The notes beneath the pieces are model-generated. The model was not told the origin of the DNA. It saw nothing but the letters and a program-made list of their open reading frames with translations, and ran no database searches. Below are positions 94 to 31,275 of a stretch of DNA of 45,541 nucleotides, in pieces (positions within the stretch are counted from its first letter, which is position 1; each line of letters begins with the position of its first letter). Source of the DNA: Roseospira goensis (lineage in GTDB: Bacteria; Pseudomonadota; Alphaproteobacteria; Rhodospirillales; Rhodospirillaceae); the NCBI RefSeq assembly GCF_014197795.1, contig NZ_JACIGI010000029.1:1-45541 (forward strand), read 5' to 3'. The translations under genes were made by a program, and so were the position numbers.

Positions 94-135
94 AATAATC
101 GGCCGCGACTCATCCACTGACCGCGATCGTCGCTA
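94..135. repeat. Partial copy of composite palindromic intergenic repeat
   Basis: This segment runs from AATAATCGGCCGCGACTCAT to GACCGCGATCGTCGCTA. It aligns with the distal half of the repeat at 2592-2633. As there, the last three bases are the reverse complement of a TAG stop codon, here that of the DoxX gene. The first-hairpin half is absent, apparently cut off by the adjoining terminal repeat. Confidence 0.6.
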
Positions 136-651
136 GCGCCGCCGCGCCCGCCACCAGCGGCCCAGGAGATGGTCCAGCGAGAGCGGCCCCGGCCCGCGCA
201 GAATCAGCAACAGCAAGGCGGTGGCCCACAGGGCGTGCTCCGGCCAGTTGCCGGGGTAGACGAAGACCTGGATCACGGCCGTCATGACCAGCAGGCCCAG
301 GGCCGACAGGCGCGTGAACAGACCCAGGACCAGCAGCACCGGGAACACATGCTCGGCGGTGGTGGCGAGCTGGGCGGCCAGGTCGGGGGGTAGCAGCGGC
401 ACCGCGTACTCGTCCTGGAACAGGAAGTAGGTGGTGTCGGTGATCTCCCAGCCGGACACCTTGGTCTGGCCCGAGCGCCAGAACACGCCGGCCAGACCGA
501 GGCGGGCCAGGAGGCCGATGGTCCAGGCGGGCACCCGGTCGGCGCCGCGCGTTGTGGCGCACCAGACCGCGGCCAGGGGATGCGACGGGACGGCGCGACC
601 GTCGGCGCTGCCGGCGGGGGAGGCGGGCGCAGGGGGCTGGGGGCTGGTCAT
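133..651 (-). CDS. bufD: DoxX-family membrane protein, last gene of bufferin operon
   Basis: 172-residue DoxX-family inner-membrane protein. After a Pro/Ala-rich N-terminus it reads [20 protein letters not shown], the usual first DoxX helix with its Arg, followed by three further hydrophobic segments that include [20 protein letters not shown] and [14 protein letters not shown]. The chosen ATG overlaps the stop of bufC in an ATGA, showing translational coupling. DoxX proteins are recurrent accessory genes (BufD) of bufferin operons; their biochemical role there is not settled, and a membrane redox or quinone-linked role is inference. Family assignment is firm; participation in copper handling rests on the operon context. 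Confidence 0.85.
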
Positions 652-1532
652 GGCGACGGCGGCTCCGGTGGCGGGGTGGCACGGCTCATGAGCGGGTCGC
701 AGGGCGTGGATCCGTCGGCGGTCTGCGGCACCGCCACCTCGGTCAGCAGCCCCAGCGACACCAGGCGGGCCAGGGCGGCGGTCAGATCGAAGCCGTCCGC
801 GGCCCCATCCGGTGTGGACCTGGCGCTGTGGGCTGCGGCGTGGGCCGCGGCCTGCGCGGCCGTCGCCAGCGTCTGGCCCATCTCCAGGGCGAACAGCAGC
901 GACAGGGTGCCCCGGTCCGCCCGCGCCATCAGCACCTGCCCGCGCGGGCGACAGATCAGCACCGTGGCGCCGCCCTCGTCGAGCGAGACGGTCTCGCCCT
1001 CGGGCCAGTCCGGCTGGTGCATCGCCCAGATGCGATCCACCGGCCAGGGCGAGACCACGCATCGGAACGACGGGTGCACGGCGCAGCGGGCCATCGGGAC
1101 CAAGGCGGGCGGCACCGCGCCAAGGGTGGCCGGGGCGACCGGCGCGGCGTCCGCCGCCTGGAGCGCTCCCAGCCGGGCCCACTCCAGCCGCGCCACGTCG
1201 GGCAGATAGGGCAGCGACCGCGCCGGCTCATGGCCGGCCAGGAAGTCGGGCAGGCCGTCCCCATAGGCCGACACCACGGGCGAGTTCGGCGGGGTCTGGC
1301 GGATGTAGGCCCGCGCGGTCTGCGCGAAGAACGCCTCGCCCACCAGCGCGCGCACCACCGGGAAATTGGCGCCCAGGGCCTCCGTCAGTGTCAGGTGCGT
1401 GGTGTTGCGATGGATCTGCACGCGCTGCGCCGGGTCGAGCCCATGGCCCGCGACAAGACCGGCGAGGGGGGTGTCGTCCTCCCCGCGCACCGCACCGGCG
1501 AGGGTGCGCTGGATGTCGGCCAGCGACGGCAT
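648..1532 (-). CDS. bufC: BufC: DUF2063-type partner protein of the bufferin enzyme
   Basis: 294 residues. The N-terminal 90 or so residues form the DUF2063 domain (older name: putative DNA-binding domain), with the hallmark stretch [20 protein letters not shown], then [13 protein letters not shown] and the [19 protein letters not shown] region. The C-terminal half is variable. In bufferin and related MNIO clusters this protein is the obligate partner of the DUF692 enzyme and recognises the precursor peptide; it is not a transcription factor there. Its ATG lies inside the TGATG overlap with bufB and its stop overlaps the start of bufD. An Ala/His-rich stretch ([13 protein letters not shown]) sits near residue 240. 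I see no missing segments. Confidence 0.88.
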
Positions 1533-2419
1533 CACACCGGGTCCGGACGCGCCGCCAGGACCTGCGTCATGACGGTGGCGACGCGGCCGGCCTCCGCTGC
1601 CAGGTCCGGCCACGGGGGAATGTCGGTGTCGCGCTCGACCAGCGTCGGGCGGGGTCCGGTCCGGCGCAGCGTCTCGGCGTACAGGGCGAGGACCGCGTCG
1701 CCGACCGCGCTGCCGTGGTCGTCGATGCGGATTTCGACGCCGTCGACGACGCGCACGGCGTGACCGGCGAGGTGGATCTCGCCGACCGCCTCCAGCGGCA
1801 GCGCCGCCACATAGGCGCTCGGGTCGAAGCCCAGGTTGCGGGCGCTGACGACGACATTGTTCAGATCCAGCAGCAGGCCGCAGCCGGTGCGCCGCACCAG
1901 GGCGGACAGGAACGCCGGCTCGTCCATGTCCTGGATGCGAAAGGCGAAGTAACGCGACGGGTTCTCGACCAGGATTGGACGGCCGAGCGCCGCCTGGGTC
2001 TGGTCCACGTGGCGCGCGACGATGTCGAGCGCCTCGGTGGTGCAGGGCACCGGCAGCAGGTCGTTCAGGAAGGCGCCGGGCACGCCGCACCAGGCCAGGT
2101 GCTCCGACACGAGGGCGGGCTCATACCGCGCGACAACGCCGGCCAGCCGGGCCAGGTGGGCGGTGTCGAGGTCGTGGGCGCCGCCCAGCGACAGGCCGAC
2201 TCCGTGCACCGACAGCGGGTGTTCGCGGCGCACCGCCTCCAGCGCCCGGTGCAGGGGGCCGCCGTCCTGCATGTAGTTCTCGGCGTGCACCTCGACCCAC
2301 CGAACCGGTCCGGGGTCGTCCAGCAGCGCGGCGATGTGGCTCGGCTTGAGTCCGACGCCCACGGCGGTCCGGGGGAGGACGGCCTCGGGGTACGACGGGG
2401 TGGGCGAGGCTATGGGCAT
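1532..2419 (-). CDS. bufB: BufB: MNIO (DUF692) peptide-modifying oxidase
   Basis: 295 residues, full length for the DUF692/MNIO family of multinuclear non-heme iron oxidative enzymes with a TIM-barrel fold. Conserved metal-site blocks are visible in order: VEVHAENYM, SVHGVGLSLGG, SEHLAW, LVENPSRYF, LLDLNNVVVSARN, GEIHLAGH, RIDDHGS and VERDTDIPPW. Bufferin-type members convert cysteines of the BufA precursor into thiooxazoles, creating a copper-binding peptide. The start used has GGAG about 8 nt upstream; a longer N-terminal extension is possible but would run into the upstream repeat. It overlaps bufC by 3 nt and lies 211 nt after bufA. Confidence 0.92.
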   Translation of the reverse strand: MPIASPTPSYPEAVLPRTAVGVGLKPSHIAALLDDPGPVRWVEVHAENYMQDGGPLHRALEAVRREHPLSVHGVGLSLGGAHDLDTAHLARLAGVVARYEPALVSEHLAWCGVPGAFLNDLLPVPCTTEALDIVARHVDQTQAALGRPILVENPSRYFAFRIQDMDEPAFLSALVRRTGCGLLLDLNNVVVSARNLGFDPSAYVAALPLEAVGEIHLAGHAVRVVDGVEIRIDDHGSAVGDAVLALYAETLRRTGPRPTLVERDTDIPPWPDLAAEAGRVATVMTQVLAARPDPV

Positions 2420-2561
2420 GGCGGGCTCCGGTCGCGATGCGGCGCCCCAGGCGTGGAAAGGGGGCGGCAAGGGGGGCGTGAAGAGGGGGGGCGGACCACG
2501 CGACAGCGGCCCGCCCCGCCCGGCCTTGCCCTGGGGCGCGGGGTCACGATGCGAGGAGGAG

Positions 2562-2633
2562 ACGGATCGCGGCGCGATTTCGGTTTGTCGCGATAATCGG
2601 CTGCGATCCAGACATTGATCGCGATCCGCGCTA
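2562..2633. repeat. Composite palindromic repeat between bufA and bufB
   Basis: The segment contains GCGCGATTTCGGTTTGTCGC then GATAATCGGCTG, the right arm of the hairpin seen complete at 16087-16146 and 26110-26169. It continues with GATCCAGACATTGATCGCGATCCGCGCTA. It ends in the bufA stop codon. Placed inside the operon transcript, it could stabilise the bufA 3' end or lower read-through into bufB, which would suit a precursor needed in excess over its enzyme. That role is inference. Confidence 0.7.
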
Positions 2634-2891
2634 CGAGCTCTTGGGTTCCAGGCTGCCGCCGACGAGCTTGTCGCAGGTGCCCTCGGGCACGGCCACGAAG
2701 GCGTCGCCCTGCCCGTCCACCTTCGAGGAGCCGGCACAGGACGACGAGGCGGTCTGGCAATCGTTGTGGCCGGCCTTGGCCACGCCGTAGCACTTCTCCA
2801 TCTCGGCGGCGCTGACGGCGGTCGGCGCGGCCAGGGCGACGGCGGCGGTCATGGCGGCGGCGACGAGGGCGAACTTGTCGGTGGACGTCAT
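2631..2891 (-). CDS. bufA: BufA1-type bufferin precursor peptide (DUF2282)
   Basis: 86-residue precursor with a Sec signal peptide (Lys6, hydrophobic 7-26, likely cleavage after AVSA at about residue 28). The mature part holds four cysteines at 34, 45, 52 and 73, in KCYGVAKAGHNDC, SSSC and EGTC. This arrangement is the signature of class-1 bufferins (old name DUF2282). In the family the central cysteines are oxidised by BufB-BufC to thiooxazoles and the exported peptide chelates copper. The ATG follows AGGAGA with good spacing. It is the first gene of the bufABCD operon. No second precursor (bufA2) was found in the window. Confidence 0.92.
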   Translation of the reverse strand: MTSTDKFALVAAAMTAAVALAAPTAVSAAEMEKCYGVAKAGHNDCQTASSSCAGSSKVDGQGDAFVAVPEGTCDKLVGGSLEPKSS

Positions 2892-3285
2892 GGTCGGTCT
2901 CTCCTGGGTGCGACGGGGAGGCGATCCGGGCGGGATACGCCCCGCGTCGTGGGGCCTTGGCGGCGGTGCGGCGGGTCCGGTCGCGGCCGCCACCGATCAC
3001 GCCTTCACCCTGCGCGACGCCGGCGCGAGACGGAAATGCCGATGCGCCATCCTTTCCATAGCCGGAAGGCATGGCCTGAGGGCATGGCTGCCATGCTTCT
3101 TGCAGATCGCCGGGCGACCGGTGCGGGCGGGGACAGCGACCGACGTGTGACCGCCGACACAGGCGTGCATCCTGCGCTTGTGCAGCGTTGTCCCGACCCG
3201 CACAGTACCCGCAGGATCGGTGTCGTGACGGCAAAGGGGGGCGGGCAGGGCGGCGGCGCCGTCGTGCTGGAAGAGCCTGGGAGCA
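2892..3285. other. Divergent intergenic region, bufA / histidine kinase
   Basis: 394 bp without a convincing gene. It must hold the bufA promoter (minus strand) and that of the histidine kinase (plus strand). I could not identify a clear sigma-70 or ECF-type promoter. The only ordered motif is GCATGG-CTG-CCATGC, a perfect 6-3-6 dyad at 3082-3096, next to AGGCATGGCCT at 3068-3078. These may be operators; nothing ties them to a regulator. Confidence 0.4.
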
Positions 3286-4872
3286 ATGGGCAAGGCGTCG
3301 GGGCAGGATGCAGAGGGCAGACGGGCCGACCCGGACGGGGGGCGCTGGCGCGGCGGCTTCCGCCTCGGCAGTCGCGCCCTGGCGGTCTGCCTGGTCCTGG
3401 CTCTCCTGATGGTGATTTCGGCCCTCTGGCTGCATGTCCTGGATCGGGACGCCCAGCGCCGGCGGGCGGCGATCGACTCGTGGCTGGCGCTGGAAGGCCA
3501 GATCGTCGACACGGCCGCGCGCGCGACGCAGGCGTGGCTCGACGAACGCATCAACGAGGACGGGATCAGCGTCCAGCAGGCGGAGCGCGAGGCGCTGCGC
3601 CTGTTCATCGACCCGATCCAGCTCGGGGCCGATGGCGATGCCTGGATCTATAACCGGAACTACGTCGTGTTCGACGAAAGCCTGGATTTCCCCCGCAGCT
3701 ACTTCGGCAAGGAGATCGCCGAGGTCTTCGCGCTTCAGGCCCGATACGGGGCGGCCCACTACGAAGAGCTGGTCGCGGCGGTCCAGAACGCCGGCAGCGG
3801 CACCACCTGGTATATCTGGCTGCCCGAGAAGGGGCGCGAGTACGCCGCCTATACCTCGGTGCGGGTGCATGACGAAGCCTGGACCATCGGCCTGTCGACG
3901 CCGCAGGCGCAGATCCTGGAGGTCTTTCGGGTTCCGCAGACCTTCCGACACGAGGTCCTGGGCGCCATCATCATCAGCCTGCTGCTGATCGGGCTGGCAA
4001 CGGCCCTCTGGTTCAGCCATCGGGCCGACGCGCACCGCCTGGCGGTGCTGCGCGACAGCCACGCGCAGCTTGAACGGGCGGTGGCCGAGCGCACCCGGCG
4101 ACTGGAATCCATGAACCAGGACCTGAGCCGATCCAACCAGGACCTGGAGCAGTTCGCCTATGCCGCCTCCCATGACCTTCAGGCGCCGTTGCGGACCATC
4201 TCCGGTTTTCTCGGGCTGTTGCAGACCCGCTACGGGCCCCGCCTCGACGACGAGGCCCGCGAGTTCATCACCTATTCCATCGACGGGGCCAAGCGACTCA
4301 GCCGCCAGATCCACGCGCTGTTGGAGTACTCCCGGCTGACGACCGCGGAACGCAGCGTCACGGCCGTCTCGCTGACGCGGATCGTGACCGGGGCCGTCGC
4401 CAACCTGCGCGGTCCGATCGAGGAGACCGGGGCCCGCGTGCAGGTGCCCGACGACCTGCCGATGGTCGCCGTCGATCCGGCCCAGGCGACGGTCCTGTTC
4501 CAGAACCTGATCGGCAATGCCATCAAGTACCGGCACCCCGCGCGGGAGCCCGACGTGTGGATTGAGGTTGTCCAGGTCGGCGTTCGCTGGCGGATCAGCG
4601 TCGTCGACAACGGAATCGGAATCGCGCCGGAGTACCAGGGCCGGATCTTCGGGGTGTTCCAGCGCCTGCACGGGCCGGCCGACTACGAAGGGACGGGCAT
4701 CGGCCTCGCCCTGTGCAAGCGCATCGTCGAGCGGCACGGCGGCACCCTGACCGTGACCTCTGACGGCCGCAGCGGCGCCGCCTTCACGTTCAGCCTGGCC
4801 ATGCCGGACGGGATGGAAACCGACGCCGAGGGCGCCGCCGGCACCGATGCCGCCCCGGCCGCGGAGTCGTGA
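3286..4872 (+). CDS. Cache-domain sensor histidine kinase (orphan)
   Basis: 528 residues. A membrane helix lies near residues 29-50. Next comes a periplasmic sensory region of about 165 residues with Cache-like features (GDAWIYNRNYVVFDES and the YTSVRVHDEAWTIGLSTP block), and a second helix near 222-242. A coiled linker leads to the HisKA domain with phospho-acceptor His296 in AASHDLQAPLRT. The HATPase domain has the N box NLIGNAIKYR and G boxes DNGIGIAPEY and GTGIGLALCK. The kinase core resembles the phytochrome-like His kinase subfamily. No HAMP and no adjacent response regulator are present, so its partner is elsewhere. The ligand is unknown; its position divergent from the bufferin operon is suggestive only. 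The start is supported by a close GGGAG. Confidence 0.85.
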   Translation: MGKASGQDAEGRRADPDGGRWRGGFRLGSRALAVCLVLALLMVISALWLHVLDRDAQRRRAAIDSWLALEGQIVDTAARATQAWLDERINEDGISVQQAEREALRLFIDPIQLGADGDAWIYNRNYVVFDESLDFPRSYFGKEIAEVFALQARYGAAHYEELVAAVQNAGSGTTWYIWLPEKGREYAAYTSVRVHDEAWTIGLSTPQAQILEVFRVPQTFRHEVLGAIIISLLLIGLATALWFSHRADAHRLAVLRDSHAQLERAVAERTRRLESMNQDLSRSNQDLEQFAYAASHDLQAPLRTISGFLGLLQTRYGPRLDDEAREFITYSIDGAKRLSRQIHALLEYSRLTTAERSVTAVSLTRIVTGAVANLRGPIEETGARVQVPDDLPMVAVDPAQATVLFQNLIGNAIKYRHPAREPDVWIEVVQVGVRWRISVVDNGIGIAPEYQGRIFGVFQRLHGPADYEGTGIGLALCKRIVERHGGTLTVTSDGRSGAAFTFSLAMPDGMETDAEGAAGTDAAPAAES

Positions 4873-16086: not shown

Positions 16087-16223
16087 CAGCCGATTGCGAC
16101 AAACCGGACTCGCGGCGCGATTTCGGTTTGCCGCAAAAATCGGCTGAGACTCATATAGGTCGCGCGGAGTCACGCGATCAATCCGAACCACATCGTGGTT
16201 CCGATTGATCGCGATCCGCGCTA
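16087..16223. repeat. Complete composite two-hairpin intergenic repeat
   Basis: The first hairpin, 16087-16146, pairs CAGCCGATTGCGACAAACCG with CGGTTTGCCGCAAAAATCGGCTG across a short GC-rich loop. The second hairpin, 16174-16212, is an 18-bp stem (GCGATCAATCCGAACCAC against GTGGTTCCGATTGATCGC, one mismatch) with loop ATC. The unit ends GCGATCCGCGCTA as at 2633. It follows the livF stop by 45 bp and probably acts as a 3' stabiliser or terminator. This is the fullest copy in the window. Confidence 0.8.
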
Positions 16224-16557: not shown

Positions 16558-18357
16558 TTACCGCCGCGCCCCGGCCTCTTCCAGTTCCGGTTCCTTGCCG
16601 CTGGTGCAGGGCTTCATGGCGGCCGCCATCTCGTGTTCAGAGAGCTGCTGGTCGTTGCCGCCGCCGCAGCCGCCCATGGCCGACAGCATGGCGTGTTCGC
16701 TCATCTGCTCGTCGCCGCCGCCGCAGGCCATGACCTTGGTCCCGGTGTCCTGGTTCTGGGTACGGTCGAGCGGCTTGCCGGCCTCGGTATAGGCGCGGAT
16801 GCCGGCCTCGATCTCCTCCTGCTTCTTCTTGGAGGCGGTCTTCCAGCCGTCAGTGGCGGTGGCGTCCGGCGTGGCCTCCAGCTTGCGCGACCAGTCGAAG
16901 GCGAACTTGACCTTCTTGATGGTGTGCGGCCCCCAGTAGCCGACCTTGCCCAGGTTGTAGAACTGGCGCTTGAAGGCGCTGAGCATGTAGGCCTTGAGGC
17001 AGCCCTGCAGGTACTTGCGGCGCACCTTGTCGCCCGGCACCCACGGGTAGCTGAATAGCGCTTTCTTCGAGTAGAAGCGCCGGTAGCACGACATGACCGC
17101 GTCCAGCAGCTCGCCGCGGTCTATGGCGTTGGGCTTCATGATCGGGGTGACGAAGTTGTACTGCGAGAAATCGTGGACCTCGACCTTGTCGCCCATCTCC
17201 CGGTACAGGTCGGAGAACGGCCAGGGCGTGAACATGGACCAGTTGGCCATGTCCGGGTTCCAGTCCATGCAGAGCTGGAAGGTCTCCTCAATGGTCTCGC
17301 GCGTCTCGTTCTCCAGCCCGACGATGAACTGGGCCTCGGTGACGATGCCGTTCGCGCGCAGCAGGTCGATGGCCTTCTTGTTCTGGGCCACCGTGGTTTC
17401 CTTGTGGAACAGGTCCAGGTTGAGCTGGGCCGCCGCCTCGGTGCCAAGCGAGATGTGCACCAGCCCGGCCTCACGGTAGAACGGCAGCAGGTCCTCGTCG
17501 CGCAAGACGTCGGTGACGCGGGTGTTGATGCCCCACAACACGCCAAGATTGCGGGCCTTCAGCTCCTCGCAGAAGGCGACGAAGGCGCGCTTGTTGATGG
17601 TCGGTTCCTCGTCGGCGAGGATGAAGAAGCCAACCTTGTGCTCCTTCACCAGGGTCTCGATCTCGTCGACCACCTTCTTGGGGTCGCGCACCCGATAGTC
17701 GCGCCAGAATTTCCACTGCGAGCAGAAGGAACAGGTGAACGGGCAGCCGCGCGCCATGTTCGGGGTGGCGACCCGGGTTCCGGTCGGGATGTAGATGTAC
17801 TTGTCCCAGTCCAGCACGCTCCAGTCGGCGACGATGTCGTCGACGTTGCGGATCGGCGTCTCGGCCTGGGTGGCGATGACCTTGTCGCCCTCGGCGTAGG
17901 CGATGCCCTTGACCTGGCCGCGCGCGCCCGGCCACTCGCCGGCGTCCACGGACCGCACCAGGTTGAGGAACACCTCCTCGCCCTCGCCGCGCACCACGGC
18001 GTCGATCCAGGGGGCCTCGCGCAGCACCTGTTGGTACATGAAGGTGCCATGGATGCCGCCCAGCACGGTGACCACCCCCGGGAACATGTCGCGGGCGATC
18101 TTCAGCACTTCCTCGGCCTTGTAGATCGCCGGGGTGTTGGCGGTGGTGCCGACGATGTCGGGCTGTTCCTTGGCGAGCGCGGCGCGGAGCTGCTCCTCGG
18201 TCATGTCGTCGGTCATCGCATCGATGAACCGGATGTCGGTATAGCCGCCCTTTTCCTTCAGGTACCCGGCCAGATACGCGACCCAGGCCGGCGACCAGTT
18301 GCCGGCCACTTCGGCCCCGCCGGAGTGATAATTGGGCTGGACCAGAACGATCCGCAT
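16558..18357 (-). CDS. bchE: Anaerobic Mg-protoporphyrin IX monomethyl ester cyclase
   Basis: 599 residues. BchE is the oxygen-independent cyclase that forms ring E of bacteriochlorophyll from Mg-protoporphyrin IX monomethyl ester. The N-terminus [20 protein letters not shown] is characteristic. Residues 1-150 form a cobalamin-binding-like domain. The radical-SAM motif CPFTCSFC places the iron-sulfur ligands at Cys205, 209 and 212, followed by [14 protein letters not shown]. The Cys/Gly-rich tail ([29 protein letters not shown]) is typical of proteobacterial BchE and may bind iron. GGGGAGG precedes the ATG. The gene has its own promoter and a PpsR-like site upstream and no other bch gene beside it. 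Confidence 0.95.
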
Positions 18358-18522
18358 GAGCGGCCTCCCCAACGCAGATGAGAGATGACGGGCGCAGGCA
18401 ACAGACACTGCGCGGCGGACAGGAGCCCGTCGCCGCCGCGATCAGCCAGGACCGGGGTCTGTGCGCCAATCCCCTGCGACCAACCGGATAAGTCCTTGAG
18501 ATTGGATGATTCCTGATCGCAC

Positions 18523-19734: not shown

Positions 19735-20613
19735 TCAACTCCACAGCATCGGCAGGTGGCGGTCCAGCAGCACGGCCAGGAACACCCCCATGAGGTAGAC
19801 CATGGAGCCGAAGAAGGTGCGCCGCGCCAGCGCCCGGTTGTCCGGATCCCGCAGCAGGGCCACGGCGGTATGCAGGAAGTGCAGTCCGAACAGCAGGCTG
19901 AGCAGCCCGTAGACCGCGCCCAGCTCCCCCAGGATCCAGGGCAGGGCGGCGGAGCCGACCAGCAGCACGGCGTTCGCCAGGATCGCGACGGCGCTGCGCC
20001 GCCCATCCACCAGCGCCGGCAGCATGGGCACCCCCGCGGCGCGGTAGTCGTCGCGCAGCAGCAGCGCCAGCGCCCAGAAGTGCGGCGGCGTCCACAGGAA
20101 CAGGGTGATCGCCATCAGCAGCGGCAGCAGCCAGATGCCGGGGTCGACGGCGGCCGCCCCGGCCAGCACCGCGAACGACCCGGCCGCGCCGCCCACGACG
20201 ATGTTCCACCAGGTGCGCCGCTTCAGCCACACCGTGTAGACGATGGCGTAGACGAAAGCACCCAGGAACAGATGCGCCGCCACCACCCAGTTCAGCGCCA
20301 CCGCCGCCAGGCCGACGCCGGCGGCCAGCAGCAGGGCGGCGAACGCCAGCGCGCGGCGGCGGTCGGCCGCGCTGGCCGCGACCAGCGGGCGGCGTGCCGT
20401 CCGCTTCATCAGGGCGTCGAGGTCGCGGTCGTACAGGTGGTTGAACACCGACGAACTGGCCGAGCCCAGCACCATGACCAGGGCCAGCACGGCCACGGTG
20501 GCGGCGTCGACGCTGCCGGTCTCCGAGACGGCCATGTAGCCGATCACGGCGGTGAGCGCGATGATGGTGCCGATGCGGAACTTGCACAGCTCCATGTAGT
20601 GGGCCAGCGTCAT
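19735..20613 (-). CDS. ctaB: Protoheme IX farnesyltransferase (heme O synthase)
   Basis: 292 residues of the UbiA superfamily, a polytopic membrane enzyme that adds a farnesyl group to heme B to give heme O. The two Asp-rich prenyl-diphosphate motifs are visible: NHLYDRDLDALMKRTARRPL near residue 65-85 and the second region LLRDDYRAAGVPMLP. Other family blocks are KRRTWWNIVVGGAAGS and LFLWTPPHFWALAL. The chosen ATG has GGGAGG upstream; the 38 in-frame residues before it lack family similarity. It lies between the DUF420 gene and ctaA, all in the same direction. Confidence 0.94.
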   Translation of the reverse strand: MTLAHYMELCKFRIGTIIALTAVIGYMAVSETGSVDAATVAVLALVMVLGSASSSVFNHLYDRDLDALMKRTARRPLVAASAADRRRALAFAALLLAAGVGLAAVALNWVVAAHLFLGAFVYAIVYTVWLKRRTWWNIVVGGAAGSFAVLAGAAAVDPGIWLLPLLMAITLFLWTPPHFWALALLLRDDYRAAGVPMLPALVDGRRSAVAILANAVLLVGSAALPWILGELGAVYGLLSLLFGLHFLHTAVALLRDPDNRALARRTFFGSMVYLMGVFLAVLLDRHLPMLWS

Positions 20614-20728
20614 GACGTGCCCTCCCTGCCTGGGCGGTGATCCTTGGGGAGACCGTTGCGCGGCCGTCCCACCCTGATCCTCACCCGAAAGGATAGGCTC
20701 GATTAACCCCGAAGTTTCGCGGGGCATG

Positions 20729-21312: not shown

Positions 21313-21926
21313 GGGCGGTGGTCTCCTCGGGGGCGGGGAGGGCGCGGGTCCGTGGACCGGGCGGTGCGAGGCGCCGGCCGGACGCGCGCGCCGCTTGGCG
21401 CAGTCAACGCGGGATGGATGCCGGGCGCAACCGTCAGCGTCGCGCGGCCGCTCGGCGGACGGGAAACCACGGTGTCCGAGCGGGCTGGTCAGACGGCGAC
21501 TCGCGGTCGGGGCCGCCCGAACGGGTGGGTCGAGTCGCGCGGCGCCCCATTCGTTCGGGCAGGAGTCGCGGTGAACCACGGTTTCCTAAAGTTTTCTTCG
21601 GCCATAACCATGACATGAGACTGCGTCCAATGTTCAGCGCGGAGGCGAATCGCTCCCGATATGGAGAGGGATAGGCGGTCGCATCCCGTTTTGATGAGCC
21701 CGGGGTCGGAACAAAAATGTCCGATCGGCCTTGTCGGACTATGACGGAGTCGTCATGATGACGGGGTCACGGGATGGGGTGCCCCCCTCGGTCGGTGAGG
21801 GCACGGGCGCGCAACGGCGCAGAACGAAGAATCAATCCTGTCGGCTCGCCGCCCCCGTCCCGTGACCGGATCCCGCCGTCCCGGCGTGCAGGTCCGCGGG
21901 AGGACACGCAGGAGGGGAGGTCCGCC
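21313..21926. other. Regulatory region between divergent oxidase operons
   Basis: 614 bp with no credible gene. It separates the assembly operon (minus) from ctaCDGE (plus). The stretch 21580-21770 has a lower GC content than the surroundings and contains two adjacent hairpins (21719-21739 and 21741-21756), 170-210 bp before the ctaC start. I could not pick a convincing -35/-10 pair for either side. Confidence 0.5.
21719..21756. promoter_or_regulatory. Two adjacent hairpins in ctaC leader
   Basis: GTCCGA and TCGGAC form a 6-bp stem with a 9-nt loop (21719-21739), followed one base later by ATGACG-GAGT-CGTCAT (21741-21756). Both are perfect. There is no T tract, so operators or an RNA leader structure are more likely than a terminator. 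Confidence 0.45.
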
Positions 21927-24549
<2,623 letters not shown>

Positions 24550-24580
24550 CCAGCACCGCCCCGGAGGGAGGAGAGCCGCC

Positions 24581-25150
24581 ATGGACCCGTCCGCCGATCG
24601 CCGCCCCGCCGCCCGCGCCAACGTCCGCATCGGCCTGGTGCTCGGCGGTGTCGCGCTGGGCATGGTGGGCCTGGCGTTCGCCGCCGTGCCGCTGTACCGC
24701 GTGTTCTGCCAGGTGACCGGCTACGGTGGCACGCCGCAGGTGGCGGCCGACGGCGCCGACGCCGGGGCGAGCGCCGCCGTGCCCGCGGACGCGCCGCCGA
24801 TCACGGTGCGCTTCGACGCCAACGTCAACCCCGAGTTGCCGTGGCGGTTCCGGCCCAACGACCGGGCCGTGACGGTGAGCCTGGGCGAGCAGGCGCTGTC
24901 CAGCTACCACGCGGTCAACACCGCCGACCGCGCCATCACCGGCACCGCCACCTTCAACGTCACGCCGGCCAAGGTGGCGCGCTACTTCACCAAGGTGGAC
25001 TGCTTCTGCTTCACCCGCCAGCGCCTGGAGCCGGGGCAGGCGGTCGACATGCCCGTGCTGTTCTATATCGACCCGGCGTTGCTGGACGACGTGCGCGCCC
25101 GCGACGTGCGCACCATCACGCTGTCCTACACCTTCTACGGCGCGACCTGA
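24581..25150 (+). CDS. ctaG: Copper chaperone CtaG/Cox11 for the CuB site
   Basis: 189 residues. One N-terminal membrane helix (about 15-36) is followed by the conserved AAVPLYRVFCQVTGYGG and a periplasmic immunoglobulin-like domain with the copper-binding KVDCFCFTRQRL. Other blocks are VRFDANVNPELPWRF, AVNTADRAITGTATFNVTP, PVLFYIDP and ITLSYTFY. It inserts copper into subunit I. The Ala/Asp-rich insertion after GGTPQV (about 50-66) is longer than usual. GGAGGGAGGAG precedes the ATG. The stop codon is embedded in a 17-bp tandem repeat. Confidence 0.95.
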   Translation: MDPSADRRPAARANVRIGLVLGGVALGMVGLAFAAVPLYRVFCQVTGYGGTPQVAADGADAGASAAVPADAPPITVRFDANVNPELPWRFRPNDRAVTVSLGEQALSSYHAVNTADRAITGTATFNVTPAKVARYFTKVDCFCFTRQRLEPGQAVDMPVLFYIDPALLDDVRARDVRTITLSYTFYGAT

Positions 25151-25185
25151 CCCAAGACGCGACCTGACCCAAGACGCGACCTGAC
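25141..25185. repeat. 17-bp tandem repeat overlapping ctaG stop
   Basis: CGCGACCTGACCCAAGA repeated at 25141 and 25158, with a partial third copy CGCGACCTGAC (25175-25185). Each unit contains the ACC-TGA end of ctaG, so the stop region has been copied three times. It lies 38 bp before the ctaE start and may alter spacing or RNA structure in the ctaG-ctaE gap. Confidence 0.9.
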
Positions 25186-25222
25186 GAGGGCGCGCCCCGC
25201 CGGCCCGCAGGGAGACCCCGCC

Positions 25223-26035
25223 ATGAGCAGCCCCGAGAGCAGTTCCGCCGGCCACGCGCCCGGTCATCCGTTCCACCTCGTCAATCCCAGCCCGTGGCCC
25301 GTGCTGGGCGCGATCGGGGCCTTCGTCATGGCCTACGGCGGGGTCGAGGTCATGCACGACGGCCCGCCCTGGATCCTGCTGGCGGGGCTGGCGGTGGTGG
25401 TGCTCACCATGGCGCTGTGGTGGCGCGACGTGGTGCGGGAATCGCGCGCCGGCGGGCATCATACGCGGCCGGTCCGGTTCGGGCTGCGCACCGGCATGGG
25501 GCTGTTCATCGCCTCGGAGGTCATGTTCTTCGTGGCCTTCTTCTGGGCCTACTTCCACAACGCGTTCCTGTTCAGCCCGGTGGTGGAACGCTGGCCGCCG
25601 GGCGACATGGCGGTGTTCGATCCCTGGGGGCTGCCGCTCATCAACACCGTCGTGCTGGTGACCTCGGGCGGCGTGCTGATGTGGGGACGCGGCGGTCTGG
25701 ACACCGGCGACCGCCGCCGGCTGGTGCTGGGCCTGGCGGGGGCGGCGCTGCTGGGCGCGGCCTTCCTGGTGCTCCAGGTCATCGAATACGCCCATGCCGC
25801 CTTTGCCTTCACCGACGGCATCTATCCGTCGGTGTTCTTCATGGCGACCGGGTTCCACGGCTTCCACGTCTTTGTTGGCGTGTGCTTCCTGCTGGTGTGC
25901 CTGGTGCGCGCCCGCGCCGGTCACTTCTCGGCCGAGAAGCACCTGGGGCTCCAGGCGGCCGAGTGGTACTGGCATTTCGTCGATGTCGTGTGGCTGTTCC
26001 TGTTCGGCTGGTTCTACGTCTACGTCGCACTGTAG
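25223..26035 (+). CDS. ctaE: Cytochrome c oxidase subunit III
   Basis: 270 residues, seven membrane helices. Subunit III blocks are FHLVNPSPWPVLGAIGAF, WWRDVVRES, VRFGLRTGMGLFIASEVMFFVAFFWAYFH (in parts), WPP, INTVVLVTSGG, ATGFHGFHVFVG and AAEWYWHFVDVVWLFLFGWFYVY, including the conserved carboxylate-rich lipid-contact region. It stabilises proton uptake by subunit I. GGGAGA precedes the ATG. Last gene of ctaC-ctaD-ctaG-ctaE, followed by a composite hairpin repeat. Confidence 0.96.
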   Translation: MSSPESSSAGHAPGHPFHLVNPSPWPVLGAIGAFVMAYGGVEVMHDGPPWILLAGLAVVVLTMALWWRDVVRESRAGGHHTRPVRFGLRTGMGLFIASEVMFFVAFFWAYFHNAFLFSPVVERWPPGDMAVFDPWGLPLINTVVLVTSGGVLMWGRGGLDTGDRRRLVLGLAGAALLGAAFLVLQVIEYAHAAFAFTDGIYPSVFFMATGFHGFHVFVGVCFLLVCLVRARAGHFSAEKHLGLQAAEWYWHFVDVVWLFLFGWFYVYVAL

Positions 26036-26109: not shown

Positions 26110-26214
26110 CAGCCGATTGCGACAAACCGGAATCGCGGCACGACTTCGGTTTGTCGCGATAATCGGCTGGAAAATCAATAATGTAGAGCCGATTCACGTT
26201 CGAAATCGGCTCTA
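26110..26214. repeat. Composite palindromic repeat between ctaE and CocE gene
   Basis: First hairpin at 26110-26169: CAGCCGATTGCGACAAACCG against CGGTTTGTCGC and ATAATCGGCTG, the same element as 16087-16146. A different second hairpin, TAGAGCCGATT with AATCGGCTCTA (11-bp perfect stem, 9-nt loop, 26184-26214), directly abuts the stop codon of the minus-strand CocE gene. Flanking A/T tracts suggest the second hairpin is a bidirectional terminator for the convergent pair. Confidence 0.8.
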
Positions 26215-28248
26215 TTATACGAAATCGCGCGGTAGCGTAACGTCCCAGTTGCGGCTGAAGATCCGCACGTCGCCCTCGAAGGCGTCGAGCTGGGCGGTGA
26301 TGCGGAACGTGGTCGGCGTCGCCGTCAGCACCGTGCGGGTGTCGGCCTTCACGGCCCAGCCGCCGCGCCGCAGGCCGCGCACCAGGTGGGTCTCGCCGCG
26401 CGCCGACAGCACGTCGTCGCCCACCGACTCGTACCATTCGAAGGCGCGATTCTCGACCGTGAGGTCGACGTCCTCCAGGTGCACCACCCCGTTGTCGTTG
26501 ATGACCTCCAGCACCGAGCGGTCCGCCGCAAGGTCGCGGTGGACCATCCAATTGTGATGGCCCGGCTCCAGCACCCGGCGCGGCGCCGGCGGCGCGGACT
26601 CCGGCGGCGGAAACGCGCGCAGGGTTTCGTCCTCGGGGCGCGGGGGGCGGACCGGCAGCGCCAGCGCGCTGCCCCCGGTGTGGACGGTCAGGCGCACCGG
26701 CTCCGGCGACGGCCAGGCCAGCGGCCAGTAGGAGGTGGACACCGACAACCGCACCCGGTGGCCGGCCGGGAAGGTCTGGGCGATGTCGTTCATCTTGACC
26801 GTGACGGTCTCGCGCCGGCCGGGCTGCATCGCCTCGGGATGCTCCCGGGACTGCCGATGGGTCAGGTTCAGCATGCCGTACGTCACCCGCGTGGCCTTGT
26901 CGTCCGGCGCCACGTCCGACAGCCGCACCGCCACCATGGCCAGGGGCTTGTCGCTCGACACCTCCAGGGTGGCCACCGGGGCCCCCAGGATCTCCAGCGG
27001 CTCCGTCAGGGGCGGGCTGTCGAACACCAGGGCGCCGCCGTCCTCCTGGCGCTGGTCGTGCGCGAGGTCGGGGCCGGCGGCGTAGGAGCACCACTTGCCG
27101 GCGAACAGGCCCAGCGTCAGCGGTGATTGCACCGGCAGCGCCACGTCGGCGCCGCTGGTCCCGGCGGGCAGGAGGCCGCAGGGGGTGAGCGCGTGACGCT
27201 GAACCCGCATATTGGGCGAGGGCCACACCGGCTCCGCCACCCAGCGGCCCGGGCGGTGGGTGTAGCTGGCGGTCGGCGGGACGCTGTCCTGCATCCACAC
27301 CCGCAGCATGGGCTCGTCCATCAGGCCGGTGTCGCGGTCCTTCAGCCAGTGGTCCCACCAGCGGATCGATTCCTGCAGGAACCCGATGGCGGGGCCCGGC
27401 ACCCCGATGTGGGGGTACTTGTGGCTCCACGGCCCGACCAGCCCCTGGCGCGGGACGCGCAGGTTGGCGAGCAGGCGGAAGACCGCATTGGAATAGCCGT
27501 CGGCCCAGCCGCTCACCGCCATCACCGGGCAGGTCACGGCGCCGTAGTCCTCGGCGATCGAGCCGTGGCGCCAGTAGGCATCGCGGCGCTGGTGGCGCAA
27601 CCAGGTCTCCAGCCACAGCCCGCTGCCCTCCAGACGCTCGGTCCACATCCTCCGCCAGCGGTCGCCCACGACCTCCGGGTCCGGCGGCAGCGCGGTGTAG
27701 GAGAACATCACCGAGGCCCAGGAGAGAGAGTCGCCCAGCAGGCACCCGCCCATGTGGTGGATGTCGTCGGCGTAGCGGTCGTCGGTCGAGCACAGGGTGA
27801 TGATGGCGCCCAGGGTCGGCGGGCGCAGGGCGGCGATCTGGAGGCCGTTGAAACCGCCCCAGGAGATGCCGATCATGCCGACCCGGCCGCTGCACCAGGG
27901 CTGCGCGGCCAGCCAGGCGATCACGTCGCAGCCGTCGTCCAGCTCCTGCGGCAGGTATTCGTCGGTCAGCACCCCGTCGGAGTCGCCGCTGCCGCGCAGG
28001 TCGACGCGCAGACAGGCGTAGCCGTGGCCGGCGACGTAGGGGTGCATCATGGAATCGCGATGCCGCGTCAGGTCGCGCCGGCGGTAGGGGATGTACTCCA
28101 GGATGGCCGGGACCGGATGATCGTCGGCGTCGTCGGGCCGCCACAGGCGGCCGGCGAGGCGGGCGCCGTCGCGCATCGGGATCCAGACCGTCTCGATGGC
28201 CCGGACCCGGTGCGGCAGGTCGGTGCGGTGATGCAGGCGGGGGGTCAT
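26215..28248 (-). CDS. CocE/NonD-family hydrolase (peptidase S15-like)
   Basis: 677 residues. The N-terminal alpha/beta-hydrolase domain has IPMRDGARLAGRLWRPDD, the nucleophile elbow GISWGG with Ser129, and VSGWADGYSNA carrying the likely catalytic Asp, then GPWSHKYPHIG with the likely His. The C-terminal jelly-roll typical of X-Pro dipeptidyl peptidase and cocaine esterase follows (SSDKPLAMVAVRLSDVAPD, RVRLSVSTSYWPLAWPSPEP). Such enzymes cleave esters, amides or Xaa-Pro bonds. No signal peptide, so cytosolic. The ATG overlaps the stop of the ATP-grasp gene (ATGA), meaning the two are made together. The substrate is unknown; the final 100 residues appear family-specific. Confidence 0.88.
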   Translation of the reverse strand: MTPRLHHRTDLPHRVRAIETVWIPMRDGARLAGRLWRPDDADDHPVPAILEYIPYRRRDLTRHRDSMMHPYVAGHGYACLRVDLRGSGDSDGVLTDEYLPQELDDGCDVIAWLAAQPWCSGRVGMIGISWGGFNGLQIAALRPPTLGAIITLCSTDDRYADDIHHMGGCLLGDSLSWASVMFSYTALPPDPEVVGDRWRRMWTERLEGSGLWLETWLRHQRRDAYWRHGSIAEDYGAVTCPVMAVSGWADGYSNAVFRLLANLRVPRQGLVGPWSHKYPHIGVPGPAIGFLQESIRWWDHWLKDRDTGLMDEPMLRVWMQDSVPPTASYTHRPGRWVAEPVWPSPNMRVQRHALTPCGLLPAGTSGADVALPVQSPLTLGLFAGKWCSYAAGPDLAHDQRQEDGGALVFDSPPLTEPLEILGAPVATLEVSSDKPLAMVAVRLSDVAPDDKATRVTYGMLNLTHRQSREHPEAMQPGRRETVTVKMNDIAQTFPAGHRVRLSVSTSYWPLAWPSPEPVRLTVHTGGSALALPVRPPRPEDETLRAFPPPESAPPAPRRVLEPGHHNWMVHRDLAADRSVLEVINDNGVVHLEDVDLTVENRAFEWYESVGDDVLSARGETHLVRGLRRGGWAVKADTRTVLTATPTTFRITAQLDAFEGDVRIFSRNWDVTLPRDFV

Positions 28249-29609
28249 GCCGCGACTCCCTCCTGTCCGTCGAAGCGCAGGTCGATCAGGCGCCATAGCC
28301 GCGCGAAGTCGCGCTTGAGGGCCGTGCGGCTGTCGGCACCCAGGAAGAGGGTCGCCAGCTCGTAGCTGTACGGGTCGCGCATGGTCATGTCCGCCAACCG
28401 CATCCCCGGCTTCACGTGCAGTTCGATCTCGGCCCCGGGGACGCGCGCCTCCAGGCGCCGCAGCGTGGCTTCATCGGGCGCATGCGAGACCACCCAGTCG
28501 TCGTGGTTCCCGTACAGCCGGGGCATGAACTTGGCGGCATAGCGGAAGCGGCCGCGCCGGGCCGGATAGTCCGGCCGCCGGCCCAGCGCCACGTCGATCA
28601 TCACTTCCTTGTGGGGCACGCCCTCCACCTTGTCGAACAGCGGACTGTGGGACTTCGAGATGCGGGCGTTGATCTCCAGCAGGGCGATGGCGTCGCGGTC
28701 GCGGTCGTAGAAGAACTCCATGTTGAAGGGGGTATCGGTCAGGCCGATATGCGCGACCACCCGTGTTGCCGCGTCCCGCATGCGCCCCTTGATGCGCTCC
28801 GGCAGGCTGGAGGGGTACTCGTACCGCTCCAGGCTGGAGCGGTTGCGGCCGCGGATCGAATCCACGATGCCGTAGATCTCCACCGTGCCGTCGAAGACGT
28901 AGCCCTCAAGGGTGCACTGCCGGCCCTGGGAGATGATGGCTTCGGCGATGCACTGGGGGCCGTCGAGGCCGGCCACCGCGTCGGGCAGGTCGGCGTACCC
29001 CATCAGCGCGTCGAGCGGGTCGGTGAACCGGTGGATGCCGGCGCGGATGGCGTCGAGCGCCTGGGCGAAGTCACCGCGGGTACGGATGCGGTAGCCGAGC
29101 AGCGAGGAATGCGCGGTCACCGGCTTGAGCCAGAACGGATAGTCCAGCGGCGGTGGATCGCGCCGGGAGACCGCGAACGGATCGACCAGGGCGAAGGGGG
29201 GCACCAGGTCGGGCACGGCTTCGGCCTGTGCCAGCCGGCTCCAGTACTTGTGCTCGCAGCGCAGCACGCTCTCCAGGCTCGGCCCCCGCAGGCCCCATTC
29301 CCGGCGCAGGATCGGCATCATCAGCACGCTGGGGAAATCCCAGTAGCCGACGATGGCGTCGACCGGGTCCGGAAACGCGCGCAGGGTGGCCCGCGCCTTG
29401 TCGAGCAGGGCCGGCACGTCGAAGCGTGGCGACGACACGATCTCGTCGAGGGTCAGAAGCTCGTGGAAGGCGTAGGCGTCGGCATTGCGGACCGCGCGCA
29501 GGAGCTTCAGGTTGAAGGGGTCCAGACCCATGACGAAGACGTTCGTCTTGCGTCGTCTCGGCGTGCGGTCGTCTGCCGCGGATTGGCGTGTCGGCGATTG
29601 GTGTGTCAT
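28245..29609 (-). CDS. ATP-grasp ligase-like protein of unknown substrate
   Basis: 454 residues. A pre-ATP-grasp domain (KTNVFVMGLDPFNLKLLRAV, with VGYWDFPSVLMMPIL) is followed by the ATP-grasp fold: WLKPVTAHSSLLGYRI, the phosphate-loop region, CIAEAIISQGRQCTLEGYVF, and the metal-binding end ALLEINARISKSHSPLF with the E-x-N pair. Architecture resembles carboxylate-amine ligases that join an acid and an amine through an acyl phosphate. Substrates cannot be read. It is upstream of, and coupled to, the CocE-type hydrolase, so one enzyme may make and the other break or trim an amide or ester. The start is the ATG at 29609 inside a degenerate 15-bp repeat; MGLDPFN at residue 27 is an alternative. 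Confidence 0.82.
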   Translation of the reverse strand: MTHQSPTRQSAADDRTPRRRKTNVFVMGLDPFNLKLLRAVRNADAYAFHELLTLDEIVSSPRFDVPALLDKARATLRAFPDPVDAIVGYWDFPSVLMMPILRREWGLRGPSLESVLRCEHKYWSRLAQAEAVPDLVPPFALVDPFAVSRRDPPPLDYPFWLKPVTAHSSLLGYRIRTRGDFAQALDAIRAGIHRFTDPLDALMGYADLPDAVAGLDGPQCIAEAIISQGRQCTLEGYVFDGTVEIYGIVDSIRGRNRSSLERYEYPSSLPERIKGRMRDAATRVVAHIGLTDTPFNMEFFYDRDRDAIALLEINARISKSHSPLFDKVEGVPHKEVMIDVALGRRPDYPARRGRFRYAAKFMPRLYGNHDDWVVSHAPDEATLRRLEARVPGAEIELHVKPGMRLADMTMRDPYSYELATLFLGADSRTALKRDFARLWRLIDLRFDGQEGVAA

Positions 29610-29981
29610 CGGTCGGCGTGTCCCTGCACCACGCGGACCGGCATCCGGTTGGTCCCGCCGCCATAACACCCCGTCGGGGCCGGGTGCCGGTCGTGCACCC
29701 ATCCCTTTCATGGTGACAGAGGTCGACGCGCGAGGCGAGTCCCGGTGTTGCCGGAGCCGTGCATAGGGCGCAGCCCGCACACCCGATGCGTTCATGGCGG
29801 GCGCCGTCCATGGGGCGCTGTGCCGCCCGACCCCCTCCCAGTCTCCTCCATAAAGGGGGAAGGCGTCCGGCCGGTGATCGACGCGGGCCCCGATTTTCCG
29901 TGATGAACCCTTTTTTGGGGCTGGAGCGGCGGGACCCGGTGGGCCAGGATGGGCGCCGTCATCCGTCCGCCGCCATCCCCG
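29610..29981. other. Divergent intergenic region with a copy of the terminal repeat core
   Basis: 372 bp between the ATP-grasp gene (minus) and the MarR gene (plus). Its one recognisable element is the repeat at 29888-29917. No promoter was assigned. An ATG at 29949, in frame with the MarR gene, lies in this region. Confidence 0.5.
29888..29917. repeat. Internal copy of the terminal-repeat core
   Basis: CCCCGATTTTCCGTGATGAA followed by CCCTTTTTT matches the inner end of the terminal repeats (45441-45471 read in reverse, and 71-93) except for one substitution (G for C) and one further change before the T run. It shows that the terminal sequence belongs to a dispersed family. Confidence 0.75.
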
Positions 29982-30431
29982 ATGTCCGCCTTCGACAAGA
30001 CCCAGTCCGCCGGCTACCTCGCCAACCACCTGGCGCGCCTGTTCGCCCAGGGCCTGCACCGGCGCATCCGGCCGCTCGGCCTGGCGCCGGCCCAGTTCAT
30101 GACCCTGCTGGAACTGTGGGCCGAGGACGGGTTGACCCAGAAGCAGCTTCTGGAGCGCCTGGATGTGGAACAGGCCACGATGGCCAACACGCTGGCGCGC
30201 ATGGAGCGCGACGGGCTGGTGGTGCGCACGCCGCACCCCCAGGATGCGCGCGCCCAGCAGGTGTGGCTGACGGACGCCGCGCGGGCGCTCCAGGCGCCCG
30301 CCACCGACGCCGCGCAGGCGCAGAACCGGCAGGCCCTCGCGGGCCTGTCGGCGGCCGAACAGGGCCAGTTCCTCGACCTCATGCGCCGTGTGCTGGCGAC
30401 GATGCGGGCCGGCGACGGCGGCCGGGCGTGA
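29982..30431 (+). CDS. MarR-family transcriptional regulator
   Basis: 149 residues: helical dimerisation segment SAGYLANHLARLFAQGLHRR, then the winged helix PAQFMTLLELWAEDGLTQKQ, LLERLDVEQATMANTLARME, wing RDGLVVRTPHPQDARAQQVW with the DxR of MarR proteins, and a C-terminal helix (LSAAEQGQFLDLMRRVLATM). The start at MSAFDK matches the family; an ATG 33 nt upstream would add a proline-rich leader. Its target is not evident: it is divergent from the ATP-grasp/CocE operon and convergent with the dehydrogenase. Ligands for this family are usually phenolic or oxidative compounds. Confidence 0.87.
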   Translation: MSAFDKTQSAGYLANHLARLFAQGLHRRIRPLGLAPAQFMTLLELWAEDGLTQKQLLERLDVEQATMANTLARMERDGLVVRTPHPQDARAQQVWLTDAARALQAPATDAAQAQNRQALAGLSAAEQGQFLDLMRRVLATMRAGDGGRA

Positions 30432-30450
30432 CGGAAGGCCCCCGCGCCCC

Positions 30451-31275
30451 TCAATCGTCTCCGTCGTCGAAGTGGCCGAAGGTGGCGAAGGCGCCGCCGT
30501 GGGTGGCGATCTCCGGGGCGCCCGGACCGTACGGCGGGTTGGCCGCCTCGACGGCCTCGCGGTAGAGTTCGGCGTTGTCCTGCGGCCGGAACCCGATGTG
30601 GGCGGCGGTGCGGTTGTCGTAGGGCGCATGGGTGTTGGCCGACACGCCGTAGATGATCGAGTGATCGGGGCGCGTGCAGGTCAGGGCCGCGCCGATCAGG
30701 CGCTCCAGGTCGGCGTAGCTGAGCCATGTGGACAGCATGCGGCGGTCGCGCGGCTCCGGGAAGCAGGAGCAGATCCGCATCGAGACGGCCTCGATGCCGT
30801 ACTTGTCCCAGTAGTACTGGGCCAGGCCCTCGCCATACGCCTTGGCGACGCCGTAGTTCGTGTCCGGGCGCGGCGGGGTGCGGGTGTCCAGCACCTGGCT
30901 GAAGGGGTAGTAGCCGACGGCGTGGATAGAGCTGGCCCAGATCACCCGGCGCACGCCGTTCTGCCGCGCGCCCTCGAACACGTTGTAGAGTCCCAGCATG
31001 TGGCCGCGCAGGATCTCCTGGAACGGGGCCTCCATGCCCTTGCCGGCGAGGTGGACCACGGCGTCCACGTCCCGCGTCAGGTCGCGCACCGGGGCGGGAT
31101 CGGCCAGATCGGCCTGGACGACCTCCTCGCGGTCGGCGGCGTCGGCCTCCGGCGGGTCCAGCGGGGCGATGTCGGTCACCCGCAGGTGGGTACAGTGCCG
31201 GCGCAGGGCCGGGCGCATCTGACGGCCCAGCGCCCCGGCGGCCCCGGTCAGCAGGATGCGGTGGATGGGTTTCAT
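30451..31275 (-). CDS. udh: Uronate-dehydrogenase-like NAD-dependent SDR
   Basis: 274 residues, extended SDR. It has the nucleotide loop LLTGAAGALGRQMRPAL, VVHLAGKGMEAPFQEIL, LYNVFEGARQNGVRRVIWAS, SIHAVGYYP, and the catalytic Tyr-x3-Lys in NYGVAKAYGE. The segment MRICSCFPEPRDRRMLSTWLS closely follows bacterial uronate dehydrogenases, which oxidise glucuronate or galacturonate to the aldarolactone. The end (GYGPGAPEIATHGG-type, with FGHFDDGDD) is acidic. Family is firm; the sugar acid substrate is inferred, and the usual aldarate pathway genes are not beside it. Confidence 0.78.
   Translation of the reverse strand: MKPIHRILLTGAAGALGRQMRPALRRHCTHLRVTDIAPLDPPEADAADREEVVQADLADPAPVRDLTRDVDAVVHLAGKGMEAPFQEILRGHMLGLYNVFEGARQNGVRRVIWASSIHAVGYYPFSQVLDTRTPPRPDTNYGVAKAYGEGLAQYYWDKYGIEAVSMRICSCFPEPRDRRMLSTWLSYADLERLIGAALTCTRPDHSIIYGVSANTHAPYDNRTAAHIGFRPQDNAELYREAVEAANPPYGPGAPEIATHGGAFATFGHFDDGDD

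Follow-up and report, generated by a model that had tools for sequence, protein, structure and literature searches.

The window analysed here, a stretch of 45,541 nucleotides that makes up one whole contig (C29) of the 4.18-Mb genome, begins with what is very probably (about 93%) a canonical bufferin operon of the Buf1 type, predicted to export a copper-chelating peptide, in an alphaproteobacterium of the Roseospira/Rhodospira kind. We favour a bufferin operon because its products match Pfam and NCBIfam models, because the four cysteines of the precursor and the adjacency of bufB and bufC to bufA are conserved in relatives, and because the genome has a single DUF2282 match and a single MNIO match, which lie together in it. 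Cysteine modification, export, copper binding and copper induction are attributed to this operon from family membership. Under the proposed mechanism, BufB and BufC would oxidise the two central cysteines of BufA, Cys45 and Cys52, to thiooxazoles in the cytoplasm, while Cys34 and Cys73 would pair as a disulphide. The Sec pathway would then carry the peptide to the periplasm, where it would chelate excess copper, with the DoxX protein BufD as a putative accessory membrane protein. The operon is likely to be expressed under copper stress. It is an ordinary, clear-cut instance of a system described before: the original prediction had its kind right, and novelty is absent.

Operon layout and family assignment

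The four genes are arranged as follows:

2631..2891 (stop codon included), minus strand: bufA, Buf1-type (DUF2282) bufferin precursor, 86 aa
1532..2419, minus strand: bufB, MNIO (DUF692) bufferin maturase, 295 aa
648..1532, minus strand: bufC, DUF2063 partner of the MNIO enzyme, 294 aa
133..651, minus strand: bufD, DoxX membrane protein, 172 aa

A four-gene bufA-bufB-bufC-bufD operon had been predicted at 133..2891, and all four open reading frames were found there on the minus strand. The predicted couplings among the last three genes are also present, as a 1-base overlap of bufB and bufC (TGATG) and a 4-base overlap of bufC and bufD (ATGA). The contig ends 132 bases past bufD, which sets the limit of the readable downstream sequence.

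The profile check proposed with the original prediction, against DUF2282, DUF692, DUF2063 and DoxX, placed all four proteins over the Pfam gathering scores, with matches far above chance level. The bufA product reached 86.7 bits against DUF2282 (PF10048; gathering cut-off 22.4; residues 31-81), the bufB product 336.2 bits against MbnB_TglH_ChrH (PF05114; cut-off 25), the bufC product 80.0 bits against DUF2063 (PF09836; cut-off 27.2; residues 1-281) and the bufD product 76.5 bits against DoxX (PF07681; cut-off 23.6). BufB also exceeded the curated cut-off of the NCBIfam model MNIO_BufB (NF050167; 361.7 bits vs 310). Three further NCBIfam scores weigh against the bufferin reading, since they fall under their cut-offs: BufA2 (NF050166) for bufA (38.8 bits vs 60), HvfC for bufC (50.9 vs 142) and HvfX for bufD (59 vs 80). 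The assignment to the Buf1 (DUF2282) bufferin family is nevertheless backed by curated models and by conservation in relatives. In a genome-wide profile search, the sole DUF2282 match and the sole MNIO match were those of the operon; no second bufferin precursor was found in the genome with the DUF2282 and BufA2 models, the latter finding bufA alone, under its cut-off.

The simple codon-position G+C rule by which open reading frames were picked favoured plus-strand frames over bufC and bufD. We overruled this wrong call because family matches and conservation support bufC and bufD; as the rule miscalled this region, the neighbour lists derived from it may miss genes.

The precursor and its enzyme

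The predicted length of the precursor, 86 aa, and all four predicted cysteine positions (34, 45, 52 and 73) were borne out when counted on the translation, and the N-terminus resembles, as judged by eye, a Sec export signal. The four cysteine columns are occupied by cysteine in 36/36 aligned precursors (35 relatives and the window). The precursor of locus L041, which has tandem precursor genes of which the farther one was used, carries two extra cysteines. A strict cysteine-spacing pattern missed 8 of the 36 precursors, which on inspection have a longer spacing between the second and third cysteines. The EGKCG motif is absent from the inspected translation of BufA, and no solved structure resembling the precursor was found at E values up to 1.

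Many His, Glu, Asp and Asn columns of the enzyme are kept across the 35 rows of the MNIO alignment (from which the short, weak match L025 was dropped), and the columns E43, H45, E47, H72, H107, E152, N153, D185, H216, D233 and H235 are kept in every row. The closest solved relative of BufB is 3bww (E 4e-35), and the best MbnB chain matches at E 1.2e-8; against the NCBIfam MbnB model (TIGR04159) BufB scores 51.9 bits, under the cut-off of 325. Its nearest named relatives are the enzymes of Roseospira and Rhodospira (L003-L007), which are 71-75% identical.

Conservation of the operon in relatives

The gene order A-B-C-D is kept in all five sister-genus loci, whose BufA copies are 74-86% identical to that of the window. 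Among the 35 relatives with bufA, bufB and bufC adjoin it downstream in 33; the two exceptions, L044 and L045, are loci of which just 1.5 kb per side was read. We detected bufD in 19 of the 22 longer loci (L003-L024, from the MNIO search). DUF2282 was found in 20 of the 41 genomes of the relatives set, own genome counted; within the genus, 6 of 7 genomes have it. As the loci were picked by similarity to the enzyme of the window or to DUF2282, these counts describe relatives and are no independent sample. L001, L002 and L026 were dropped from the spacing, MNIO and upstream comparisons as the own genome, and L031, L032, L033, L035 and L039 as being, judged by length, the same contigs as L003-L007. 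Two loci have no bufA row: the contig of L024 begins just ahead of the bufB match, and L025 is the short, weak match mentioned above.

A dispersed repeat between bufA and bufB

The bufA-bufB spacer measures 211 bases, compared with 78-118 in the sister loci, these lengths being approximate because the start codon in each relative was assigned as the first ATG that follows a stop. The first ~70 bases of the spacer represent a copy of a dispersed repeat:

2560..2633, minus strand: dispersed hairpin-type repeat in the bufA-bufB spacer, beginning at the bufA stop codon

In the own genome, the whole spacer as query gave 51 matches and the 74-base element gave 58, in counts for which only 40 candidate places were scored and some matches represent the opposite arm of one copy. 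Of the sister genomes G001-G004, three had no match and G003 had one short match. The repeat occurs three times in the window, at 2560-2633 (minus strand), 16087-16149 and 26110-26169, and the two further copies (matches 16116-16146 and 26139-26169) lie between open reading frames picked by the G+C rule. The 74-base repeat can fold as a hairpin, but taken alone its fold does not stand out from those of shuffled sequences (z -1.21, with 27 of 200 shuffles as good); the full spacer folds more stably than shuffled versions of itself (z -3.40). No RNA family reached its gathering threshold in the window.

REP elements offer an analogy for a role of such repeats in mRNA stability, and the spacer repeat could possibly play such a role here. 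A REP-associated transposase was considered for the repeat and rejected: contig C6 carries a weak Y1_Tnp match (C6:15266-15604; 27.5 bits, cut-off 23), and no scored repeat copy of C6 lies near it.

A conserved element upstream of bufA

The region upstream of bufA has diverged in the genus (mean column identity 52%), except for one short stretch:

3032..3073, minus strand: conserved element of ~42 bases, candidate promoter or operator, ending ~140 bases ahead of the bufA ATG

This element is found upstream of bufA in 6/6 congeners, that is, in the window and the five sister-genus loci, where it matches a majority-like sequence at 32-38 of 42 positions, while 50 letter shuffles of each locus never exceeded 24; the majority-like sequence was drawn from the same six loci, which raises their scores by construction. 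Among 30 other loci, L027 alone scored clearly above its shuffles (28 vs 22), and none of the remaining 29 did so (L021 ties at 22). In some species the left part of the element reads as an imperfect inverted repeat. When a 20-base pattern was searched in seven genomes (own, G001-G004, G025 and G026), matches with no more than one mismatch were confined to the bufA copies (own, G001, G002 and G003).

The element may be a promoter or an operator, and it provides a concrete site from which to search for whatever regulates bufferin operons devoid of sigma factor and NrsF genes. A wider regulon was set aside, as two-mismatch matches were about as common as with a reversed control pattern. A reading as a CueR operator, made by eye, was also abandoned, the left half not being kept in the sister species. 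One could imagine that in this species the repeat directly behind bufA protects the bufA transcript or terminates it and so fixes how much precursor is made relative to the enzymes, and that the upstream element is bufferin-specific, bound by a regulator, and controls the operon in the genus independently of CueR and of SigF/NrsF; we regard this combined proposal as improbable.

The adjacent sensor kinase

The original prediction had placed the operon next to an orphan sensor kinase. Such a gene is indeed present, divergent from bufA and separated from it by 394 bases:

3286..4872, plus strand: sensor kinase with HisKA and HATPase_c domains, 528 aa

The hinted link between the two found no support, as none of the five sister-genus loci has a homologue of this kinase beside bufA. 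In nine genomes searched, the closest homologues were 65% identical (G005) and 58% identical (G004), and both are distant from bufA: G005 carries the kinase homologue on contig C113 and bufA on C146, and G004 lacks any DUF2282 match. Two relatives out of 35, L027 and L030, do carry a histidine kinase gene immediately upstream of bufA, in tandem with it. These kinases match that of the window in the kinase core alone (31% and 26%) and differ from it in architecture, the one of L030 looking by sight like a receiver-kinase hybrid. The same places were recovered as L090:7060-8685 (plus strand; L027), with the histidine kinase gene upstream of bufA in tandem, and L091:5034-7088 (plus strand; L030), with a kinase gene of other build upstream of bufA. 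L027 and L030 are more distant relatives, and their two kinases are of different builds.

The sensor kinase was set aside as a partner of the operon on account of the sister-genus loci, and the kinases of L027 and L030, being other kinases in a tandem arrangement, were not retained as support for such a role. We take the kinase of the window to be a chance neighbour of the operon, though a little less surely in view of L027 and L030.

Copper context

Among the neighbouring genes scanned in the window, none that adjoins the operon is a copper-handling gene. COX2, COX1 and COX3, encoding subunits II, I and III of cytochrome c oxidase, a copper enzyme, were observed at 21774-26035 (plus strand), ~19 kb from the operon. 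Other observations on the contig include a B12-binding radical SAM protein (16558-18408, minus strand) with a UbiA prenyltransferase gene not far away (19735-20727, minus strand), and an open reading frame of 794 aa (28245-30629, minus strand) whose Pfam matches (ATP-grasp) are confined to its second half and which adjoins an X-Pro dipeptidyl-peptidase-like protein (26215-28296, minus strand).

Two sister genomes, a Rhodospira MAG (L006) and Roseospira visakhapatnamensis (L007), place a P-type ATPase gene divergent from bufA:

L006:1955-4192, minus strand: copper-translocating P-type ATPase, divergent from bufA
L007:1957-4392, minus strand: copper-translocating P-type ATPase, divergent from bufA

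Both products score above the copper-translocating cut-off of TIGR01511 (558.2 and 542.2, respectively; cut-off 397), and this neighbour is one reason why we favour copper. With the L006 ATPase as query against 45 loci and the window, matches were obtained only in L006, L007 and their duplicate reads L031 and L039. The homologue thus lies beside bufA in only 2 of 35 relatives (in 14 of them the sequence read covered just ~1.5 kb per side), and this rarity weighs against the copper reading. The nearest upstream open reading frames tested in the other sister loci encode a choice-of-anchor protein (L003), a DUF2269 protein (L004) and an acetylglutamate kinase (L005). The lack of a copper gene among the scanned neighbours of the operon in the window likewise counts against copper, as does the location of the own copper genes: the three copper-type ATPases and the one CueR that scored above cut-off are all on other contigs.

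Control by SigF/NrsF was also considered and is unlikely here, because the NrsF model (PF06532) found nothing in the own genome, while it did give a match in Caulobacter vibrioides, used as control. A literature search on Roseospira and copper returned nothing that concerned bufferins by title.

Alternative explanations

Antoine et al. (2025; PMC12452194) report that bufferins sequester periplasmic copper through thiooxazoles and enhance growth under copper stress. The same text describes fusions with MerC, a possible connection to gold and a homologue of DoxX linked to oxidative or sulphur stress, so that a bufferin-family operon could conceivably buffer another metal or answer redox or thiol stress. 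The scanned neighbours in the window, free of copper genes, would agree with such a role, but the copper-type P-ATPase that is the divergent neighbour of bufA in two sister genomes and the published growth benefit under copper stress speak for copper, and we judge a function unrelated to copper to be quite unlikely. The ATPase fits the published copper role and does not alter it. Decay or silencing of the operon is more improbable still. A dispersed repeat lies between bufA and bufB, but the four frames are open, the conserved residues are intact, and BufA and BufB keep 74-86% and 71-75% identity, respectively, with the sister-genus copies.

It is also tempting to see in the divergent kinase and the operon one copper-sensing unit, given their closeness, the histidine kinases directly upstream of bufA in L027 and L030, and the presence of the upstream element in L027, alone among the loci outside the genus. 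This element is, however, kept in sister species without the kinase, none of which has a kinase homologue beside bufA. The two closest homologues of the kinase lie away from bufA, one of them in a genome without a DUF2282 match, and the kinases of L027 and L030 stand in tandem rather than divergently, with identity (26-31%) limited to the kinase core and, in L030, a build that by sight is that of a receiver-kinase hybrid. A joint copper-sensing unit is therefore very unlikely, and a Buf1-type operon exporting a copper-chelating peptide remains our preferred reading.

Comparison with known systems

Bufferins of the Buf1 type have been described as DUF2282 precursors with four cysteines, the central two modified and the outer two disulphide-bonded, and the core of bufferin clusters as the genes for the precursor, the MNIO enzyme, the DUF2063 protein and the DoxX protein (Antoine et al., 2025; PMC12452194). 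The idea that the present operon is a compact version of the system has to be abandoned, as its four-gene set corresponds to this published core and is also the usual set in relatives.

More distant systems share single traits with it. BufB belongs to the enzyme superfamily of MbnB of the methanobactin pathway, but here its partner is a DUF2063 protein, the precursor carries an export signal (by eye), and the MbnB model gives 51.9 of the 325 bits required. The EGKCG/oxazolin peptides and 'captophorins' (PMC12452194; PMC13097082) carry thiooxazoles installed by MNIO enzymes, with a proposed copper-binding function, but BufA lacks the EGKCG motif. Buf2 bufferins have the same kind of maturation genes and are exported, but they contain six or twelve cysteines, in contrast to the four of BufA, which scores 38.8 against the BufA2 model, below 60. 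The closest likeness is to the Buf1 clusters, which according to PMC12452194 unite a four-cysteine DUF2282 precursor with MNIO, DUF2063 and DoxX genes in one operon, as here. The present operon differs from some of them in having no sigma factor/NrsF genes, which are described there as optional, non-core components of some clusters only. It thus adds one more well-formed Buf1 operon, placed with its relatives in the Roseospira/Rhodospira group.
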